Source: Anaeromicrobium sediminis
Lineage (GTDB): Bacteria; Bacillota; Clostridia; Peptostreptococcales; Thermotaleaceae
Length of the DNA: 64,000 nt
Reading direction: 5' to 3'
NCBI RefSeq assembly: GCF_002270055.1
Contig: NZ_NIBG01000004.1
Location: 54,782 to 118,781, forward strand
Position 1 is the stretch's first letter, and each line of letters starts with the position of its first letter. The position numbers and the translations under genes were made by a program. This document shows, one piece after another, positions 21,171 through 44,250 of the stretch. Below the pieces are notes generated by a model. It saw only the letters and a program-made list of their open reading frames with translations. It did no database searches and was not told the DNA's origin.

Positions 21171-21346
21171 TAAAAAAGGCATGCTCCGTATGCTTCGCTA
21201 GGAAACCCTATGGTTTCCTTCGACGATTGCTATTGCAATCTGAGCATCTTCCTTTAAAGAGGCAGGGGAATTTTTCCCCTACAACTCCTTATTTTTTTAC
21301 CTATCCACAGTTTTGAGAATGTTATAATTTCCTATAGCGTAAAAAA
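21171..21346 (+). repeat. intergenic structured repeat, copy A
   Basis: About 176 bp here recur at 51565-51737 in the same orientation as written. Four hairpins are visible in order: GCATGC/GTATGC (21179-21193), GGAAACC/GGTTTCC (21201-21218), GATTGC/GCAATC (21225-21240) and AGGGGAA/TTTTTCCCCT (21264-21280). A shared block CCTTTAAAGAGGCAGGGGAA precedes the last loop. Both copies start with TAAAAAAGGC and end with TAAAAAAA abutting a terminator. It may be a non-autonomous mobile element or a small RNA; no open frame lies inside it. Confidence 0.85.
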
Positions 21347-23344: not shown

Positions 23345-25051
23345 TTGTTAAAAATTACAAAATTGTCATCCCGCCTAATAGTATCTTTTCTATTAATAGT
23401 GATTTTAACTGGATTTTTAAGTTTTATGTCTATCAAAGACGTGAATACTTTAAAAAATTTGAATGTTAAGATGTATAAACATCCCTTTACAGTAAGCAAT
23501 GCTGTATTAGAGATACAAGTTAATATTGTCAAAATTCATAGAGAAATGAAAGATATTTCTACAGCAAAGAGTAAATCTCAAATTGATCAATTAGTAGCAA
23601 ATGTTGATAGATATGAGAAAGAGGTTTTTAATAAGTTTGAAGTTATATATGATCGATTCCTTGGAGATAAAAAGATGGTTGATGCTGCATATAATACTTT
23701 TAAGGATTGGAAAAAAATTAGAGACGAAGTAATAACGCTTACTATCCAAGATAAAAAAGAACAAGCAATTAGTATTACAAAGGGAAAGGGTGCTAAGCAC
23801 GTAGCATTAATTGATGAAGAAATAGGTAACTTATCAGATTTTGCTCAAAACAAAGCTATAGAATTCTTTAATAATTCTAATAAGCAAACCCAACAATCCA
23901 TAATCATGTTACTTGGTTTAGTGTCAATTATATTACTCTTAATCATAGTTATTGCATTTACAACGGTATTTAGTATTAAGAAGCGACTAGATTTAACAAT
24001 AGATATGATGAAGGACTTAGCTGAAGGTGATGGTGACTTAACAAAAAGATTAGAAGTTAAGACCAAGGATGAACTAGGTGAAATAGCAGATTTACTAAAC
24101 ACTTTCGTAGGAAAAATAAGAGCTACAGTTAGTGAAGTGGTGTCTGCTTCAGCAACACTTACCCAATTCGGCGGCACACTAAGTACAGCTATTACAGAAG
24201 CTAACTCAGGCATGGAAGAAATTGCAACATCTATTAATACTATAAGCGATAGTGTGCAAAATGTTGCAGGCGTTACTGAAGAAACAACAGCAAGCATAGA
24301 AGAAATGTCTAGTAGTGCAGAAACAATAAGTATTGAATCAAATAAATCCTTCGATAACTCAAAGCTAGTATTAGAATCAGCTAACCAAGGGGCTAAACTA
24401 ATAGAAGAAGTAGTTGATTCTATTGATAAGGTGAAAGACTCATCTTCCCATGTTTCACAGGTAATTAATGAACTTAAACAATCCTCAGGAAAAATTAGTG
24501 ATATAGTCTTAATTATGACTAATATTTCTGAGCAAACTAATCTACTTGCTTTAAACGCAGCAATAGAGGCTGCAAGAGCAGGAGATGCTGGAAAAGGTTT
24601 TTCAGTAGTAGCTGAGGAGGTTAGAAAGCTTGCAGAAGAAAGTAAAAAATCTGCTGATGACATAACACAGTTAATTTCAGGTATACAACAACAAATTGAA
24701 AAAACTAATAATATTATTATGAATGAAAATCAGCTTGTAGATACAAGTGTTAAAAAGGTTTATGACACAAATGACTCCTTTAAGAAAATACTTAATGTAA
24801 TTCAAGAAATCTCTATGAAGATAGAAATGATTGCCCAATCTTCAGAACAGCAGTCTGTAATTTCTAATGATATGACTAAAGCCATAGATAGCCTATCACA
24901 GGAAACCCAAACTAATGCAAGTGCAGCTCAACAAATTACTGCTGGCATAGAAGAACAGGTTGGAACATTCCAGGAAATTGGTTCAAATATTGAAGAATTA
25001 AACAATATTGTTAAGAACTTAAAAGGTCAAGCAGATAAATTTAAAATATAA
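23345..25051 (+). CDS. methyl-accepting chemotaxis protein
   Basis: This 568-residue transmembrane chemoreceptor signals to CheA/CheW. It has a transmembrane helix at about 10-30, a four-helix-bundle ligand domain (about 35-180), a second membrane helix (about 184-208), HAMP (about 210-262) and a long signalling coiled coil. The hairpin tip [38 protein letters not shown] is the family hallmark. Glutamine/glutamate-rich methylation helices flank it ([24 protein letters not shown]). The TTG at 23345 is chosen as start because GGAGG lies 8 nt upstream; the ATG at 23309 has no ribosome binding site. No che genes are nearby. Confidence 0.93.
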
Positions 25052-30096: not shown

Positions 30097-31371
30097 ATGT
30101 ATCTAAGAAAAATTTTCATATTGTTACTTGTAATTCTAATAGTATTACCTATAAACGTAAGCGCCAGAACCAAAGATGAAGCATCCAGTTGGCATTATGG
30201 AAATGTAAGTGACTGGGCAAAACCTGTGCTTGTATCTGCTGCAACAAAAGAGATTGCTAAAGATGAGAGTCTTTTTATAAATTGTAGTAGAAATATTACA
30301 GGAAAAGAATTTGTAACGCTCCTAGTGAATTTGTATGAATCATTAACAGAAAATACAATGAAACCTGCATCTAAAGTTAAATTTCCCGATGTTGATGTGA
30401 CTTTACGAAAAGCATATAAGTATGAACTTGCCCATGGTATAGGTAATGAAAAGTTTGCACCAGATGATTATGTTACACGAGAACAAATGGCTGTTATGAT
30501 TTATAATGAAATAAAACTCATACTTAAAAGGTTAAATATGGCTATTTATTATAGTGATGGTGTTCCTACTCTTAATTTTGCAGATAAGGCAAATGTTTCT
30601 TCTTGGGCCGTTGATGAAGTAGATTATATATTTGATAATAAAATTATTACAGGTGATGGAATCTATTTTAATCCGAAGGGAAATGTTTCTGTTGAGCAGG
30701 CAGTAGCAATATTAAATAACGTATACGATATCTATAATCCTCACTTTGAGGCAGGTGGAAAATCTAAAGCAGAAGTCAAAGCAGCTTTAGAAGCAATCAA
30801 TACAAAAAAATTCACTGTAGGTGATATGGTATCTTTTAACTTGGGATATTATGATGATGCTAAAATGGTTTCTTATGAAGATGGATATGTTTTTCGTTTA
30901 GACGGAGTTAACAGCAATACTGGTGAAAAAAGGGGCACATTAGTTTTTGATAGTGATATGAATGAACAAAATAATTGGTACACAGATGTTGACATGGAGA
31001 CTTATGTATTTATTGACAAAAAAAGCTGGTATTCTGATGTGGGTATAATGTTAAGAGTTAACGCAATGGAATTTGTAAATAATAGACATAGTGGATATTA
31101 TATATGTATTCAAGGTAACGGAGATGTCCGTTTTGAAGTCTATTCTATAAGAGAGGGCTGGAAAGAGCTAGAATATTTCCATACCAATGTAGACCCAACA
31201 ATTCCAAATAAATTACGGGTTACAGCCGTAGGGTCCAATTTCACTATTTATTTAAATGATAGAGAAATTGGTACTGTAAAAGATAGTACCTATTCTGCTG
31301 GTAACGTTGGTCTTAGCGCGTGGAACGAATACGCTTATTATTATGGCACTATAGTTAAAGATTTAGATTAA
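30097..31371 (+). CDS. SLH-domain surface protein with C-terminal jelly-roll domain (copy 1)
   Basis: This 424-residue secreted protein has a signal peptide (about 1-24, ending NVSA-R). A region with three SLH-like repeats follows (about 28-220): ASSWHYGNVSDWAKP, KFPDV...YELAHGIGNEKFAPDDYVTREQMAVMI, and SSWAVDEVDYIFDNKIITGDG...PKGNVSVEQAVAIL. SLH repeats bind pyruvylated secondary cell-wall polymer and hold proteins on the surface. The C-terminal domain (about 240-424), with GIMLRVNAMEFVNNRHSGYYICIQ and NKLRVTAVGSNFTIYLNDREIG, resembles the LamG/DUF1080-type concanavalin fold and may bind glycans. AAAGGAGG precedes the ATG. A close paralogue lies 1.1 kb downstream. Confidence 0.88.
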   Translation: MYLRKIFILLLVILIVLPINVSARTKDEASSWHYGNVSDWAKPVLVSAATKEIAKDESLFINCSRNITGKEFVTLLVNLYESLTENTMKPASKVKFPDVDVTLRKAYKYELAHGIGNEKFAPDDYVTREQMAVMIYNEIKLILKRLNMAIYYSDGVPTLNFADKANVSSWAVDEVDYIFDNKIITGDGIYFNPKGNVSVEQAVAILNNVYDIYNPHFEAGGKSKAEVKAALEAINTKKFTVGDMVSFNLGYYDDAKMVSYEDGYVFRLDGVNSNTGEKRGTLVFDSDMNEQNNWYTDVDMETYVFIDKKSWYSDVGIMLRVNAMEFVNNRHSGYYICIQGNGDVRFEVYSIREGWKELEYFHTNVDPTIPNKLRVTAVGSNFTIYLNDREIGTVKDSTYSAGNVGLSAWNEYAYYYGTIVKDLD

Positions 31372-31615: not shown

Positions 31616-32188
31616 TTAGTTTTCATATATATTTTTTTCTTCAGGTGCATCAATACTTTCAACTTTAGTTGCCTTAATTATTGGAATCATTTCTTCCCTA
31701 TTAGTATATTCATTATAATAACTAACTGCATCAATTATTCCCGTAACCTCTACCCATTCATTATCCTCAAATTTGCTGCCCTCACTCCATTCACATAATA
31801 ATCCAGTCAATTGCTCATGATAATGGTCACCATGGCGACTCATTAATAATCGAGAAATAACAAATCTCTCTTTAGGAAAATCTGATTCCCTGTGTACAGC
31901 ACCTGACAATGTAACTTCCTTACCCATCATTTCATCTGGATTCATATATACAGATTCTAGAGTTCTCTTAAACTTTTCCCCATCAGAATTAGGATCCTGG
32001 TCTTCAACATGATCCACTTTATCTTCATTAATATCTAAAGTTTCTTCTTGCTTAATAGGTTCTTTTTTATTTATTTCACTGTCACTAATCTCATTCTTCT
32101 GTCCTTTTTCAATTAATCCGTACGCAAAATAAATAAGGCCAATTGCTATTATAACCCCTATGAATTTACCTATCTGTGATTTCTTCAT
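31616..32188 (-). CDS. membrane-anchored protein with a DUF1980-like (YcgQ C-terminal) domain
   Basis: The 190-residue protein has one N-terminal membrane helix (about 8-26), an acidic, disordered linker (about 30-70) and a C-terminal OB-like domain (about 75-180). Segments YMNPDEMMGKEVTLSGAV, RFVISRLLMSR and LTGLLCEWSEGSKFEDNEWVEVTGII resemble the C-terminal domain of the TIGR03943/YcgQ family. Family members usually have a Cys-Cys pair after the RF(V)(V/I)xR strand. Here that place reads SRHGDHYHEQ, with three histidines, so a changed metal site is possible. No DUF318 permease, the usual partner, is adjacent. A decayed copy of this gene lies at 29729-29756. Confidence 0.65.
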   Translation of the reverse strand: MKKSQIGKFIGVIIAIGLIYFAYGLIEKGQKNEISDSEINKKEPIKQEETLDINEDKVDHVEDQDPNSDGEKFKRTLESVYMNPDEMMGKEVTLSGAVHRESDFPKERFVISRLLMSRHGDHYHEQLTGLLCEWSEGSKFEDNEWVEVTGIIDAVSYYNEYTNREEMIPIIKATKVESIDAPEEKNIYEN

Positions 32189-32454: not shown

Positions 32455-33729
32455 GTGAATGGAAAAAAAATTATAACATTGTTACTTGTAATTCTAATAG
32501 GATTACCTATAAACGTAAGCGCTAGACATAAAGACGAAGCATCCAGTTGGCATTATGGAAACGTAAGTAATTGGGCAAAACCTGCCCTGGTTTCTGCTGT
32601 TACAAAAGACATTGCTACAGATGAGAGCCTTTTTGTAGATTGTGCTAGAAATATTACAGGGAAAGAATTTGCAATTCTAGTAGTGAATCTGCATGAATCT
32701 TTAACAGAAAGTAAAATCAAACCTGCATCTAAAGGTAACTTTCCCGATGCTGATGTGAATTTACGAAAAGCATATACTCTTAAAATTATCAATGGTGTAG
32801 GAGAAGAAAAATTTGAACCCAATGCTTCTGTTACGCGAGAGCAAATGGCCGTTATCATATATAATGAAATAAAACTCATACTTAAAAGACTAAATATAGC
32901 TATTAATTATAGTGATGGAGTTCCTACTCTTAATTTTGCAGATAAGGCAAATGTTTCTCCTTGGGCTGTTGATGAAGTAGATTATATGTTTGATAATAAA
33001 ATTATTACAGGTGATGGAACAAATTTCAATCCGAAGGGTAATGTTTCTGTTGAGCAAGCAGTAGCAATATTAAATAGAGTATATGATAAGTATAAGCCTG
33101 AGTTTGAGGCAGGTGGAAAATCTAAAGAAGAGGCAAAAGCAGCCCTAGAAGCAAGCATCACAGAAAAGTTTACTGTAGGTGATATGGTATCTTTTAACTT
33201 CGGATATTATGATGATGCTAAAATGGATTCCTATGGAGATGGATATGTTTTTCATTTAGACGGAGTTAACAGCAACACGGGTCGAAAAGAAGGTAAATTA
33301 GTTCTTGATAATGATATGAATGAACAGCATAATTGGTATACAGATGTTGACATGGAAACTTATGTATTTCTTGATAAAAAAAGTTCCTATTCTGATGCAG
33401 GCATAATGTTGAGAGTAAATGCAATGGAAGTTGGAAATAATAGACACAATGGATATTATGCATGTATTGAAGATAATGGAGATATTCGTTTTGGAGTATA
33501 TGTTATGAGTGAAGGTTGGAAAGAACTACAATATTTTCATACCAATGTAGATCCAACAATTCCAAATAAATTACGTGTTAAAGCTGTAGGATCAAGTTTC
33601 ACTATTTATTTAAATGATAGAGAAATTGGTACTGTAAGTGATAGTACATATTCTGCTGGTAAAGTTGGACTTAGAACTTGGAACGGAGATGCTTATTACT
33701 ATGGTACTGTAGTTAAAGATTTAGATTAA
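32455..33729 (+). CDS. SLH-domain surface protein with C-terminal jelly-roll domain (copy 2)
   Basis: This 424-residue paralogue of the protein at 30097-31371 aligns over the whole length without gaps. It has the same signal peptide (IGLPINVSAR), SLH-like repeats (about 28-220) and C-terminal concanavalin-like domain. The start is GTG, aligned with the ATG of copy 1 and preceded by GGGAGG. Substitutions are spread over the protein, and the last 60 residues are the most alike. About 90 nt upstream of both genes are also similar, so the promoter region was duplicated with the gene. It is followed by a strong bidirectional terminator. Confidence 0.88.
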   Translation: MNGKKIITLLLVILIGLPINVSARHKDEASSWHYGNVSNWAKPALVSAVTKDIATDESLFVDCARNITGKEFAILVVNLHESLTESKIKPASKGNFPDADVNLRKAYTLKIINGVGEEKFEPNASVTREQMAVIIYNEIKLILKRLNIAINYSDGVPTLNFADKANVSPWAVDEVDYMFDNKIITGDGTNFNPKGNVSVEQAVAILNRVYDKYKPEFEAGGKSKEEAKAALEASITEKFTVGDMVSFNFGYYDDAKMDSYGDGYVFHLDGVNSNTGRKEGKLVLDNDMNEQHNWYTDVDMETYVFLDKKSSYSDAGIMLRVNAMEVGNNRHNGYYACIEDNGDIRFGVYVMSEGWKELQYFHTNVDPTIPNKLRVKAVGSSFTIYLNDREIGTVSDSTYSAGKVGLRTWNGDAYYYGTVVKDLD

Positions 33730-33796: not shown

Positions 33797-35758
33797 CTAT
33801 TTATCATTTAATACTCTCATGGCATTTAGTATGGCAATAGTAGCAACACCTACATCACCAAAAACTGCACTCCACATATTTGCTATACCAACGGCCCCTA
33901 GAACAAGGATAATTCCCTTAACACCAAGGGCAAATATAATATTTTGCCATACTATCTTATTAGTATTTTTAGAAATACTTATGGCCTTAGGAATTTTACT
34001 GATTTCATCTGTCATTAAAACCACATCTGCCGCTTCAATGGCAGCATCAGATCCTAAACCACCCATGGCTATTCCCACATCAGCCCTTGCCAATACAGGT
34101 GCATCATTAATGCCATCTCCAACAAATACAACTTTTCCTTTATTATTCTTATTAAATAATAATTCAAGCTTCTCTACTTTTTCATGGGGCAATAGTTCAG
34201 AATATACTTTATCAATTCCTATCTTCTTTCCTATATGATCAGCCACATTCTTATGGTCACCTGTTAACATAATAATGTTAGAAATGCCCATCTTCTTTAG
34301 GGACTCAATTCCATCTTTAGTATCTTCCTTTAATTCATCTGCAATTATGATTGTTCCAATATGTTTATTTTCCTTTGAAATATATATATTAGTTCCAGCT
34401 TGGTTAACTGCTGATATATGTATGTTATTATCTTTCATTAGAGCCTTGTTTCCAACAAGTACTTGAATTTCTTCAAATTCAGCTGAAATACCTTTCCCTG
34501 CTATCTCATTAATATTTGAAACCTTTGATTCATCTAGACCTTTAGAATATTCTTCTACAATTGATTGAGCAATAGGATGATTAGAGAAATGCTCTATATG
34601 AGCTGCTATCTTTAATACTTCATCCTCTTTAAAACCTTCTTGTGCCATTATTTCTTTAACTTTAAACTTACCTTTAGTTAGAGTTCCCGTCTTATCAAAT
34701 ACAATAGTATCTACATCTTTTAGGGCCTCTATAAAGTTTCCACCCTTTATCAATATACCATTTCTTGATGCGGCCCCAATACCACCAAAGTATCCAAGTG
34801 GGATTGAAATAACTAAAGCACAAGGACAGGATACAACTAAGAATATGGCTGCTCTATACATCCAAGGTAAAAAAGGTTCCTTTAATATAAGTGGAGGACA
34901 AATAGCTAATAATAGGGCTCCACCTACTACTGCTGGTGTATAGTATCTTGCAAATTTCGTAATAAACTTTTCTGTCTTGGCCTTTTGTGCATTTGCCTTT
35001 TCTACTAAATCCAATATTTTTGAAACTGTTGATTCATTAAATAATTTAGTAACTTTAATAGTTAAGGCTCCCGTTTTATTTATGGAACCACTTAGTACTT
35101 CATTATCCACATCCACTTCCCTAGGGATAGATTCTCCAGTGATTACAGAAGTATCTATAGTGGACTGCCCTTCTATTACTATTCCATCAAGTGGAACCTT
35201 TTCTCCTGGTTTAACTAAAATAATATCTCCAATTTGAATCTTATCAGGAGAAACTTTCACATAATTATTATCCTTTTTTAAATTAGCAAACTCTGGTTTA
35301 ATATCTAATAGAGCAGTAATTGATCTCTTTGATCTATCTACTGCCATATGCTCAAATATCTCACCTACTCGGAAAAATAACATAACTGCCACAGCTTCTG
35401 GATATTCTCCTATAAGGAATGCTGCAAGGGATGCAATTGACATTAGGAAGTTTTCATCCAATAGTTGCCCTCCTAAGATCCCCTTAATAGCGTCAAATAC
35501 AATATTTCTAGCAATAACTATGTATGCCATTACAAATAATCCTAGTTGAATAGATTGATTAACCGGAGCAAGTAATGCAGCAGCAAATATGATTGCACCG
35601 ATAATTAGTTGAATTATATCACCTTTACTGGCTTCATGACTATGATCGTGATCATGGTGGTGATGATCATGGTCATGATGGTCATGACTTTTTTGAGCTG
35701 GTCCACAGCCACTAGAACAACCTCAAGAACTTTTAGCTTTTAATATTTTTTCACTCAT
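33797..35758 (-). CDS. P1B-type Zn/Cd-transporting ATPase with an in-frame UGA (candidate selenoprotein)
   Basis: This metal-efflux ATPase has TGES, a CPC membrane motif (VSCPCALVISIPLG), the phosphorylation site DKTGTLT, the HP motif in HFSNHPIAQ and the hinge GDGINDAPVL. This is the zinc/cadmium/lead class. The longest uninterrupted frame starts at 35530 and lacks the first membrane helix. Reading through one UGA at 35725-35723 (codon 12) gives 653 residues from an ATG at 35758. That ATG has a GGGGG ribosome binding site and lies 2 nt after the arsR stop. The added N-terminus reads KSS-U-GCSSGCGP, then a His/Asp-rich run, then the missing helix. No other start lies between the UGA and 35530. 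A hairpin suited to a bacterial SECIS follows the UGA. A nonsense mutation is the alternative. Confidence 0.85.
35696..35725 (-). promoter_or_regulatory. candidate bacterial SECIS element after in-frame UGA
   Basis: On the minus strand the UGA (35725-35723) is followed by 12 nt, then GGCUG (35710-35706), loop UGGAC (35705-35701) and CAGCU (35700-35696). That gives four Watson-Crick pairs and one G-U, with the loop starting 18 nt after the UGA and a G in its second place. Spacing and small G-containing loop fit the bacterial SECIS pattern recognised by SelB. The stem is short, so support is moderate. Confidence 0.5.
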
Positions 35759-35760
35759 TT

Positions 35761-36120
35761 CTATTTCCCCCTTTTTTCTAAAATGTGGTCTAACCCCATT
35801 TGGTAAATTCCCTCTACATGTTCATCATCTAAAGAGTAATATGACAACCTTCCTTCTTTTCTCATCTTTACTAATCTATGATTTCTAAGAACTCGTAGCT
35901 GATGAGATACGGATGATTGACTCATATTTAATAGATTTGCTATGGTCCCAACACATAACTCCCTTTTAAATAGGACGTAGATCAACTTGACTCTTGTCTG
36001 ATCTCCAAATATTTTTAAGAACTCAGATAAAGAGTACAATGTATCTTCCTCTGGCATATTTTCAATAATTTCTTTAATAGCTTTATCTTCATTTCCTTTA
36101 CAGCAAGCTTCTAAATGCAA
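35761..36120 (-). CDS. ArsR/SmtB-family metal sensor repressor
   Basis: This 119-residue winged-helix repressor has DNA-recognition segment ELCVGTIANLLNMSQSSVSHQLRVLRNHRLV. The C-terminal helix DDEHVEGIYQMGLDHI has the Asp-x-His and His spacing of the alpha-5 zinc site of CzrA/SmtB. Near the N-terminus EACCKG offers a Cys pair like the alpha-3N site of CadC. A TTG start at 36120 is preferred because a perfect GGAGGTGA lies just upstream; the ATG at 36141 would place that sequence inside the gene. Its stop is 2 nt before the ATPase start, so the two form an operon repressed until Zn or Cd is in excess. Confidence 0.9.
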   Translation of the reverse strand: MHLEACCKGNEDKAIKEIIENMPEEDTLYSLSEFLKIFGDQTRVKLIYVLFKRELCVGTIANLLNMSQSSVSHQLRVLRNHRLVKMRKEGRLSYYSLDDEHVEGIYQMGLDHILEKRGK

Positions 36121-36146
36121 ATAGTCACCTCCAAAACACATCTATA

Positions 36147-36175
36147 TATGTACATGTGTTCATGTGTTTGTTCAA
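36147..36175 (-). promoter_or_regulatory. promoter and operator of the arsR-ATPase operon
   Basis: On the minus strand TTGAAC (36175-36170), a 17-nt spacer and TACATA (36152-36147) form the promoter. The spacer region holds the dyad ACATG-TGTT-CATGT (36152-36165), in position for an ArsR-type repressor. Confidence 0.55.
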
Positions 36176-37963: not shown

Positions 37964-38596
37964 ATGAGTATTAATTGGTTTGAATGGTTAGGTTATTTAG
38001 CTTCTCTCATTGTACTAATATCCCTATTAATGAGTTCTATCCTAAAACTTCGATGGATTAATTTAGTAGGATCTGGTTTATTTGCTCTATATGGATTTTT
38101 AATTGGCGCATTGCCAGTAGGATTTATGAATCTAGGTATTGCTGCTATTAACATATACTACCTTATAAAGATATATAGATCAAAGGAATACTTTAAGATG
38201 CTTCCCATTGAAGGGGATTCTAAGTATTTCAGCTACTTCTTAGATTTTCATAAAAAGGGACTAGAAGAGTATGCTGGTACATCTCAGTTTCATATTAGCA
38301 ACTCAGATGTAAATTTTTATATTTTAAGAAATATGGTACCAGCGGGAATTTTTATAGGCTCTAAATATGATGAGAATACTCTAAAGGTAGATCTTGATTT
38401 TGTTATACCAGAATATAGGGATTTTAAAATAGGAAGCTACATTTACGAAAATAGAAAGGAATATTTCCTAGATAAAGGCTACTCTAAGTTTATAAGTTTT
38501 TCATCAAAGGATGAACATATTAAATACCTTAAAAAAATGGGATTTGAAGAAAAAGAAGGAAAAGGCAAAAAATGTTTTGTAAAATCAATAATTTAG
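37964..38596 (+). CDS. YgjV-like membrane protein with C-terminal acetyltransferase-like domain
   Basis: The 210-residue protein has three N-terminal membrane helices (about 5-75; WLGYLASLIVLISLLMSSILKLRWINLVGSGLFALYG resembles the YgjV/inner-membrane family). The soluble C-terminal half resembles a GNAT fold, with VDLDFVIPEYRDFKIGSYIYEN and GYSKFISFSSKDEHIKYLKKMGFEEKE. The acetyl-CoA loop is atypical (YRDFKIG), so activity is uncertain. Single gene with AAGAGG as a weak ribosome binding site and a hairpin after the stop codon. A membrane-GNAT fusion of this sort is known in Firmicutes, but its function is not. Confidence 0.75.
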   Translation: MSINWFEWLGYLASLIVLISLLMSSILKLRWINLVGSGLFALYGFLIGALPVGFMNLGIAAINIYYLIKIYRSKEYFKMLPIEGDSKYFSYFLDFHKKGLEEYAGTSQFHISNSDVNFYILRNMVPAGIFIGSKYDENTLKVDLDFVIPEYRDFKIGSYIYENRKEYFLDKGYSKFISFSSKDEHIKYLKKMGFEEKEGKGKKCFVKSII

Positions 38597-42642: not shown

Positions 42643-44250
42643 ATGATCCAAGAAAGTGATCAAAAGGAAACTTGTAAAAAGAAGATGAACGAGAGACAAG
42701 TTACAAATACAAACTCAAATTTAGGAAAATGCTGTGAAACTGGACCATTAACTCCACTGCAACGTCGGGAAGAGGCATTTGAAATTCGTGAGAATGCGGC
42801 ACAGTTTCAGAAGGATCTCCCCCTTCCAAATCATCCATGTAATGGGGATGAAAATTTATATGCAAATAAAATCGGCAACTTCTCTAAGACCTTACCACAC
42901 AATGGACTAGGAGAAGTGGACATTAATGCATATAACATCTTTATTAAAGCTTTAACCACTGGTAATCCAGATATTTTTGAAGCTATTCCTTTAGGAGGTG
43001 TTATGAAACTTGCTAATCCTCAAGCTTCCTATGCATATGATTTGATAGGACCTGATTCTCATCATTTGACCACTATGATACCTCCAACCTTTAGTAGCGC
43101 TTGGCGTGCCAGCGAAATGGCTGAAGACTATTGGAGTGCTCTAACCCGTGATGTGCCTTTCATAAATTATAATACGAACTACCTTACTATTGCTGCTGCT
43201 TCTGATCTATCAAAGTTTTCGGATTTTCGAGGACCTAAAGAAGACGGAGTTGTTACTACACAAACATTGTTTAGAGGGAATTTACCTGGCGATTTGATAG
43301 GGCCTTATATTTCACAATTTTTTTATAAAGATGTACCATTTGGCAACAAGACAATAGTACAACGATATGACAGTCCAATGGCTGGGGATGATTTTATGGT
43401 CTCCTATGATGAATGGCTTAATATCCAAAATGGAGGGCTGCCAAATAATTCAATAACCTTTGACTGTCTTCCACGTTATATTCGAAATGGTCGAGATTTG
43501 GGACAATGGGTTCATGTAGATTTTACCTATCAAGGTATGCTAACTGCTTGCTTGATTCTACTAAGTTTCGGAGATAAAGCATTAGACCCACGAAACCCCT
43601 ATCTTAATTCTAGAACTCAGGTTGGTTTTATCACCTTTGGAGCAGCCCAAATTTTAGACTTCGTTGCAAAAGCAGCACGGATAGCACTAGAAGCTGCTTG
43701 GTATCAGAAATTTTTAGTACAGCGTGTCCTTCGACCTGAAGCCTTTGGCGGATGTGTTGAGAACAATTTAACAGGAGCAACCCGCTATCCCATTAATCCA
43801 GAATTATTTAATTCTAAGGCTCTTCCTAAGGTATTTAGTAAGTATGGGACTTATTTGTTACCTATGGCCTATCCGGAAGGTTGCCCTACCCATCCAGCCT
43901 ATCCAGCTGGTCATGCTACTATTGCTGGAGCTGGTGCCACTATGCTGAAGGCATTTTTTAACGAATCATTTATAATTCCTGACCCGGTTGTAGCTAGTGC
44001 AGATGGTCTTTCCTTACTTCCTTATTCAGGAGCGGCATTGACAATAGGTGGGGAATTAAACAAACTTGCTTCTAATATATCTATTGGTCGAGATCTAGCA
44101 GGTGTCCATTGGCGTTCAGATTCCAGTGAAGGTTTAAAGTTAGGTGAATCAGTAGCTATCCAAATCCTTCAGGACTACAAAAATACCTACAATGAGCACT
44201 TTAGCGGATTTACCCTAACTAAATTTGATGGAACCACTATAATAATCTAA
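42643..44250 (+). CDS. vanadium-dependent haloperoxidase-like protein (PAP2 fold)
   Basis: The 535-residue soluble protein has no signal peptide. The vanadate/phosphate site of the vanadium haloperoxidase/PAP2 superfamily is intact. The first motif is Lys in KFLVQRVLRPEAFGG (K-x6-RP), the second HPAYPAGHAT (P-x-GH) and the third SIGRDLAGVHWRSD (R-x5-H-x3-D). The rest (WRASEMAEDYWSALTRDVPF, a long helical core) fits bacterial vanadium haloperoxidases and not lipid phosphatases. Halide specificity, or acid-phosphatase activity instead, cannot be told from sequence. Codon use is richer in G+C-ending codons than its neighbours, a possible sign of acquisition. Single gene with AGGAGG ribosome binding site. 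Confidence 0.85.
   Translation: MIQESDQKETCKKKMNERQVTNTNSNLGKCCETGPLTPLQRREEAFEIRENAAQFQKDLPLPNHPCNGDENLYANKIGNFSKTLPHNGLGEVDINAYNIFIKALTTGNPDIFEAIPLGGVMKLANPQASYAYDLIGPDSHHLTTMIPPTFSSAWRASEMAEDYWSALTRDVPFINYNTNYLTIAAASDLSKFSDFRGPKEDGVVTTQTLFRGNLPGDLIGPYISQFFYKDVPFGNKTIVQRYDSPMAGDDFMVSYDEWLNIQNGGLPNNSITFDCLPRYIRNGRDLGQWVHVDFTYQGMLTACLILLSFGDKALDPRNPYLNSRTQVGFITFGAAQILDFVAKAARIALEAAWYQKFLVQRVLRPEAFGGCVENNLTGATRYPINPELFNSKALPKVFSKYGTYLLPMAYPEGCPTHPAYPAGHATIAGAGATMLKAFFNESFIIPDPVVASADGLSLLPYSGAALTIGGELNKLASNISIGRDLAGVHWRSDSSEGLKLGESVAIQILQDYKNTYNEHFSGFTLTKFDGTTIII

Follow-up and report, generated by a model that had tools for sequence, protein, structure and literature searches.

A putative selenocysteine in the N-terminal tail of a heavy-metal export ATPase of Anaeromicrobium sediminis

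An in-frame UGA in a metal ATPase gene

The question raised by this locus is whether a UGA codon close to the start of a heavy-metal ATPase gene ends translation or is read as selenocysteine (Sec). The gene lies in the stretch of 64,000 nucleotides that we analyzed (the window), which is part of the genome of Anaeromicrobium sediminis (G000; 4.7 Mb, 55 contigs). An earlier note on this DNA proposed the gene as a candidate selenoprotein. That reading is supported; the observations named in the note as able to refute it were looked for, and none refuted it. The features of the locus are as follows.

33797..35758, minus strand: P1B-type metal ATPase, as translated through UGA codon 12 (matches to TIGR01525 and TIGR01512; 653 residues plus a TAG stop)
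35723..35725, minus strand: in-frame UGA, proposed Sec 12 (from the sequence; TGA also at the same codon in genome G134 and in the same motif in genome G149)
35630..35758, minus strand: N-terminal tail predicted to be disordered, roughly residues 1-43, containing U-G-C, C-G and His/Asp repeats (from the sequence, and pLDDT below 50 for residues 1-43)
35696..35710, minus strand: hairpin GGCUG-UGGAC-CAGCU, proposed SECIS (arm from nucleotide 13 and loop from nucleotide 18 after the UGA)
35761..36141, minus strand: arsR-type metalloregulator gene directly upstream (open reading frame; NF033788, 91.1 bits against a cut-off of 55)
36134..36169, minus strand: imperfect palindrome overlapping the arsR start, a possible operator (18-nt arms, 78% complementary)

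The gene arrangement given in the earlier note was confirmed in the sequence. The ATPase ATG, at 35758 on the minus strand, is coupled to the arsR stop, lying two bases past it; 11 codons lead from there to the TGA (35725-35723), and the same frame continues with GCSSGCGP and a run rich in His and Asp. The frame beyond the UGA has 641 codons and is closed by the TAG at 33797. Within codons 1-90 of the ATPase, ATG, GTG, TTG or CTG occurs only at codons 1 and 77. Because there is no usual start among codons 2-76, the standard open reading frame begins at Met77 (577 amino acids). The predicted structural model (mean pLDDT of 75.0) has helices at residues 45-63 and 68-95, so that a start at Met77 loses the first helix and cuts the second. 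Two further claims of the note thus held, namely that no alternative start lies between the ATG and the first helix, and that this helix is absent from the 577-codon downstream frame. Standard calling of open reading frames starts the gene 3' of the UGA, and the product so annotated lacks the putative metal site as well as a membrane helix.

We also determined how often a TGA splits two open runs in the window, requiring each run to have at least 25 codons and one of them at least 100. There were seven such places, and the ATPase UGA had the longest partner, at 641 codons. The runner-up, at 23847 with 294 codons, has a 580-codon open reading frame opposite it, and the split at 34236 sits opposite the ATPase gene itself. 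The presence of the same TGA in other genomes, described below, is stronger evidence than this chance count.

The family of the pump is indicated by its scores against three models: 586.4 bits for TIGR01525 (cut-off 346.25), 535 bits for TIGR01512 (cut-off 313.5) and 401.5 bits for the copper model TIGR01511, barely above its cut-off of 397. The CPC site (C311-P-C313) and DKTGT are present and, in an alignment of 18 rows, K614 is invariant and D635 nearly invariant; we take this Lys/Asp pair of the last helices to be a hallmark of P1B-2 ATPases. An N-terminal HMA domain is common but not universal in that group. A Pfam search with the ATPase gave two domains, neither of them HMA. The nearest solved structures are of pumps with cadmium or zinc in their titles (7qbz, cadmium translocating, 5.1e-107; 4umv, 3.2e-103). 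The ZntA/CadA P1B-2 ATPases (4umv) likewise have CPC, DKTGT, the Lys and Asp residues and an ArsR-type partner; the window pump differs from them in having no HMA match and in the proposed Sec in its tail. Taken with the ArsR-type partner and the palindrome at its start, these matches make metal-induced export the likely role of the pump, of the Zn/Cd/Pb type judging by family.

A second pump of the subfamily is encoded in the same genome (L027; G000:C5:55315-57195). It is 53% identical and without TGA, and its Cys/His-rich units precede a stretch that looks HMA-like by eye. In a search of plasmids, 1320 records matched the window pump, every one at less than 60% identity. Because the 15 matches listed all start at query residue 65 or later, they are uninformative on the tail.

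Selenium machinery and the TGA in other genomes

The genome check for selA, selB, selC and selD suggested in the earlier note was positive. G000 has a tRNA-Sec gene (selC; 70.8 bits, the only one of 14 matches above the cut-off), SelA (549.6 bits, above the cut-off) and SelB (391.6 bits, the only one of nine matches above the cut-off). The selA, selB and selC genes are clustered on contig 1 with selD just upstream of selA, and selD carries an in-frame TGA of its own, in the context MTKELVKLTQMARTSG-U-AAKIGP. SelA was found in 23 of 26 genomes in all (21 of 24 when G134 and G149 are set aside), and for this reason the machinery by itself is weak evidence and a shared codon is better.

Such a codon was found outside the family of G000. 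Among the 16 genomes of that family, G000 alone has a TGA in the pump. An order-wide search covered 297 genomes, with a member of the pump subfamily at an E value of 1e-200 or better in at least 138. In G134, which belongs to the same order and another family, the pump is 76% identical over residues 1-652, its TGA falls at the identical codon, and a similar arsR directly precedes it. The pump of G149 is 50% identical and has a stretch that is HMA-like by eye, followed by GGGG-U-GCSSHCGDGHEHNHGHHH, with the UGA at codon 94. Both genomes contain selA and selC, and selD of G149 also has an in-frame TGA. A sequencing slip in the window, which the earlier note had named as a possible refutation, is unlikely because the TGA recurs, at the identical codon in G134 and within the shared motif in G149. 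The G149 locus (L108; G149:C28:2400-8400, TGA at 3992-3990) represents a second build of the putative Sec pump, in which an HMA-like domain is followed by a U-G-C/His linker.

There was no TGA in the pumps of the one other genus-mate of G134 or the two of G149 among the genomes compared. We built a profile from the three UGA-pump N-termini and searched overlapping sets of genomes for further cases. There was no true case besides G134 and G149 in 71 genomes of the family of G134, no further true case among the matches listed for 391 genomes of the class (G633, with two TAA codons, was left aside) and, at a stricter limit, none besides G000 in 398 genomes of the phylum. Several flagged stops were rejected. 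For the in-frame TGA flags in G265, G471, G615 and G499, the alignment overruns the likely pump start into other sequence, and for G123 (TAG), G170 and G173 (both TAA) there is no stop within the stretch before the first helix.

The comparison bears on the possibility that the UGA is a true stop, either with a short leader peptide ending there and re-initiation of the ATPase further along, or because the gene is broken. Standard annotation, with its start at Met77, agrees with such a stop. In 126 distinct relatives, we followed the reading frame back from the first helix as far as the first stop, and in 122 of them an ATG, GTG or TTG lay on the way. The four exceptions were G000 and G134 (TGA in both), L021 (contig end) and L156 (open in another frame), leaving G000 and G134 as the only intact, uncut rows without a start codon before the first helix. 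Codons 2-96 of G134, like codons 2-76 of G000, contain no ATG, GTG, TTG or CTG, and the absence of a usual start ahead of the first helix in both pumps argues against re-initiation there. G149 is counted among the 122 because an ATG sits just before its helix, a position that would suit a true stop.

Selection between G000 and G134 speaks on both sides of the same alternative. The pN/pS ratio was 0.31 for codons 13-45, 0.64 for codons 46-76 and 0.21 from codon 77 on, with 0.21 also for arsR. With a gene body under selection at 0.21, the ATPase gene is not decaying. In codons 1-11 there were nine non-synonymous changes and no synonymous ones, and the excess of changes at third positions over codons 13-76 was not significant (20 of 50, p = 0.20). 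Purifying selection that is weak or not significant in codons 1-11 and 13-76 is what a true stop would allow, and this comparison of two sequences is a weak test for the tail itself. On the other side, the TGA and the flanking U-G-C and C-G codons are retained in both genomes. Taken together, we consider a true stop very improbable.

A different possibility is that the UGA is read through with another residue, for example by a near-cognate tRNA. The comparisons speak directly to read-through, and the identity of the residue is a further step. The genome has full Sec machinery, and the residue would fall within a Cys-type motif. In addition, arsR of G134 ends with TGA, so TGA is the default stop in that genome. 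Insertion of a residue other than Sec therefore seems scarcely credible, and insertion of Sec at UGA codon 12 is, from sequence comparison, very likely.

A candidate SECIS hairpin

The earlier note described a SECIS-like hairpin after the UGA, and the case for it is weaker than the note has it. The hairpin is present with its loop beginning 18 nt after the UGA, and related positions are occupied in G134 (GGCUGU-GGA-ACAGCU, loop from 19 nt) and G149 (CCAUU-GCGGA-GAUGG, loop from 17 nt). A published model of the bacterial SECIS gives a loop of 3-9 nt, a stem of 4-16 bp, a G in the first two loop positions, a spacing of 16-37 nt and an energy of -7.5 kcal/mol or lower (as stated in PMC13188914). 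All three hairpins agree with it in the size of the loop, the length of the stem, the loop G and the spacing. Against the model's -7.5 kcal/mol, the energies of the hairpins alone were -4.5 (G000), -5.5 (G134) and -3.0 (G149); those of a 39-nt stretch were -8.1, -7.7 and -8.9, respectively, with the G000 value coming from a different fold.

Of 300 synonymous recodings for each gene, 87 for G000, 31 for G134 and 216 for G149 reached an energy as low or lower, as compared to one of 300 in the selD control. Hairpin energy was rejected as proof of a SECIS, being ordinary relative to these recodings. From its position and shape, a SECIS downstream of the UGA is plausible.

Cysteine-bearing relatives and the role of selenium

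If Sec is inserted, relatives might have Cys at the equivalent place, as the earlier note anticipated for codon 12. For 126 rows, we counted motifs over the 60 residues that precede the first helix, judging a Cys match at the level of the motif and not by a strict alignment column. U-x-C was found in three rows, C-x-C in 16, CC only in eight, and neither in 99. Two of the C-x-C rows are spurious (L026, where the motif is upstream of the start, and L156, where it is in a shifted frame). The expectation was borne out by the 14 remaining rows with C-x-C and does not hold in general. Because 99 of 126 relatives have neither C-x-C nor CC, the U/Cys site is optional.

The Cys-bearing pumps include close relatives of the putative Sec pumps. 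Two members of the genus of G149, G185 and G206, carry CGC or CNC together with His, and Cys-Gly-Cys/His units recur in close kin of G149. L121 (PGCACAHAHTHDHH) and L133 (HSCNCSTGHCHDH) are HMA-less pumps with a short tail like that of the window's gene, containing Cys-x-Cys and His, which supports a Sec at a Cys-type site. In a tree of 157 rows made with a quick method, two changes are required to explain the Sec label, a number that stays the same if the count is limited to starred branches. G000 and G134 form a group (support 100) that adjoins four pumps of the family of G000 with Cys-Cys/His linkers (96), and G149 groups with its own genus (100) on a separate branch. Sec in these pumps may have originated by two gains, or by one gain and many losses.

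We propose that the pump exports heavy metal as a P1B-2 ATPase of the ZntA/CadA type and is made as a selenoprotein. The ribosome would read UGA codon 12 as Sec with SelB and tRNA-Sec, probably with the short downstream hairpin. The flexible tail, which carries U-G-C-S-S-G-C-G and His/Asp repeats, would stand in for the HMA domain and would most likely catch a cytosolic soft metal (Zn, Cd, Pb or Hg) and deliver it to the membrane CPC site. The ArsR-type regulator would turn on both genes as the metal rises. We estimate a probability of roughly 0.85 that Sec is inserted and that the pump exports metal.

What the selenium does is less certain. Selenium in the tail would be expected to favour soft ions, and the odds that the selenium of Sec 12 is itself a soft-metal ligand appear about even. 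In well-studied selenoproteins, Sec serves mostly for redox catalysis, and U-x-C pairs can form selenenylsulfides. Sec could accordingly have a redox or regulatory role here, with a U-G-C selenenylsulfide gating the pump, or with the UGA tying synthesis to selenium supply. The general capacity of U-x-C pairs fits the gating version, and a UGA at codon 12, ahead of nearly the whole protein, fits a role in regulation. On the other hand, the UGA of G149 comes only at codon 94, and the His/Asp-rich tail and the Cys-Gly-Cys/His repeats in the kin of G149 look metal-binding. We regard a redox or regulatory role as rather unlikely. Metal binding is the reading we prefer. In its full form, Sec is a soft-metal ligand and not a redox site in a disordered tail, a state reached twice independently within one Clostridia-like order; we offer this tentatively, at somewhat less than even odds. 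The same caution applies when it is joined to the suggestion that each proposed gain took place in a U-G-C/Cys-Gly/His-rich unit, where some relatives use Cys-x-Cys. If true, the optional Sec in the tail, the Cys-bearing kin and the TGA-less paralogue would together offer a clean test of selenium as a metal ligand.

Publications already list E1-E2 cation ATPases that are selenoproteins (PMC13188914, PMC9312934, PMC2398784, PMC5029168), so the kind of protein is known. The printed cases are given as 32 proteins (the count in Table 3 of PMC5029168) in 25 organisms with the motif UxxC, and the first listing is in a 2007 paper, as cited in PMC13188914. The window pump shares with them the TIGR01525 domain with one Sec (inferred here). 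By listed motif alone, it is set apart as a variant, having UxC (U12-G-C14-S15) where the listed proteins have UxxC. The SO_0444 family Cu/Zn efflux transporter (NF033936) is also an efflux protein with a listed UxC motif (PMC13188914); it belongs to a different protein family and is listed there as GenBank annotated. The word 'ATPase' is absent from the main text of PMC12013277. From the portions of this literature available, the position of the UxC site, within a disordered Cys/His tail and on two separate branches of the tree, looks new.

Other features were observed around the pump. Two similar 424-residue open reading frames on the plus strand, at 30097-31371 (with an S-layer homology domain) and 32455-33729, flank an opposite-strand gene for a DUF1980_C protein (31616-32188, minus strand). 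The latter shares its strand with the pump and follows it, separated by one of the 424-residue frames. There was no Pfam match at 1e-5 for the plus-strand frames at 37964-38596 (210 residues) and 42643-44250 (535 residues). Rfam gave a single match in the window, a Clostridiales-2 small RNA at 21213-21296 on the minus strand (74 bits, gathering score 58.6).
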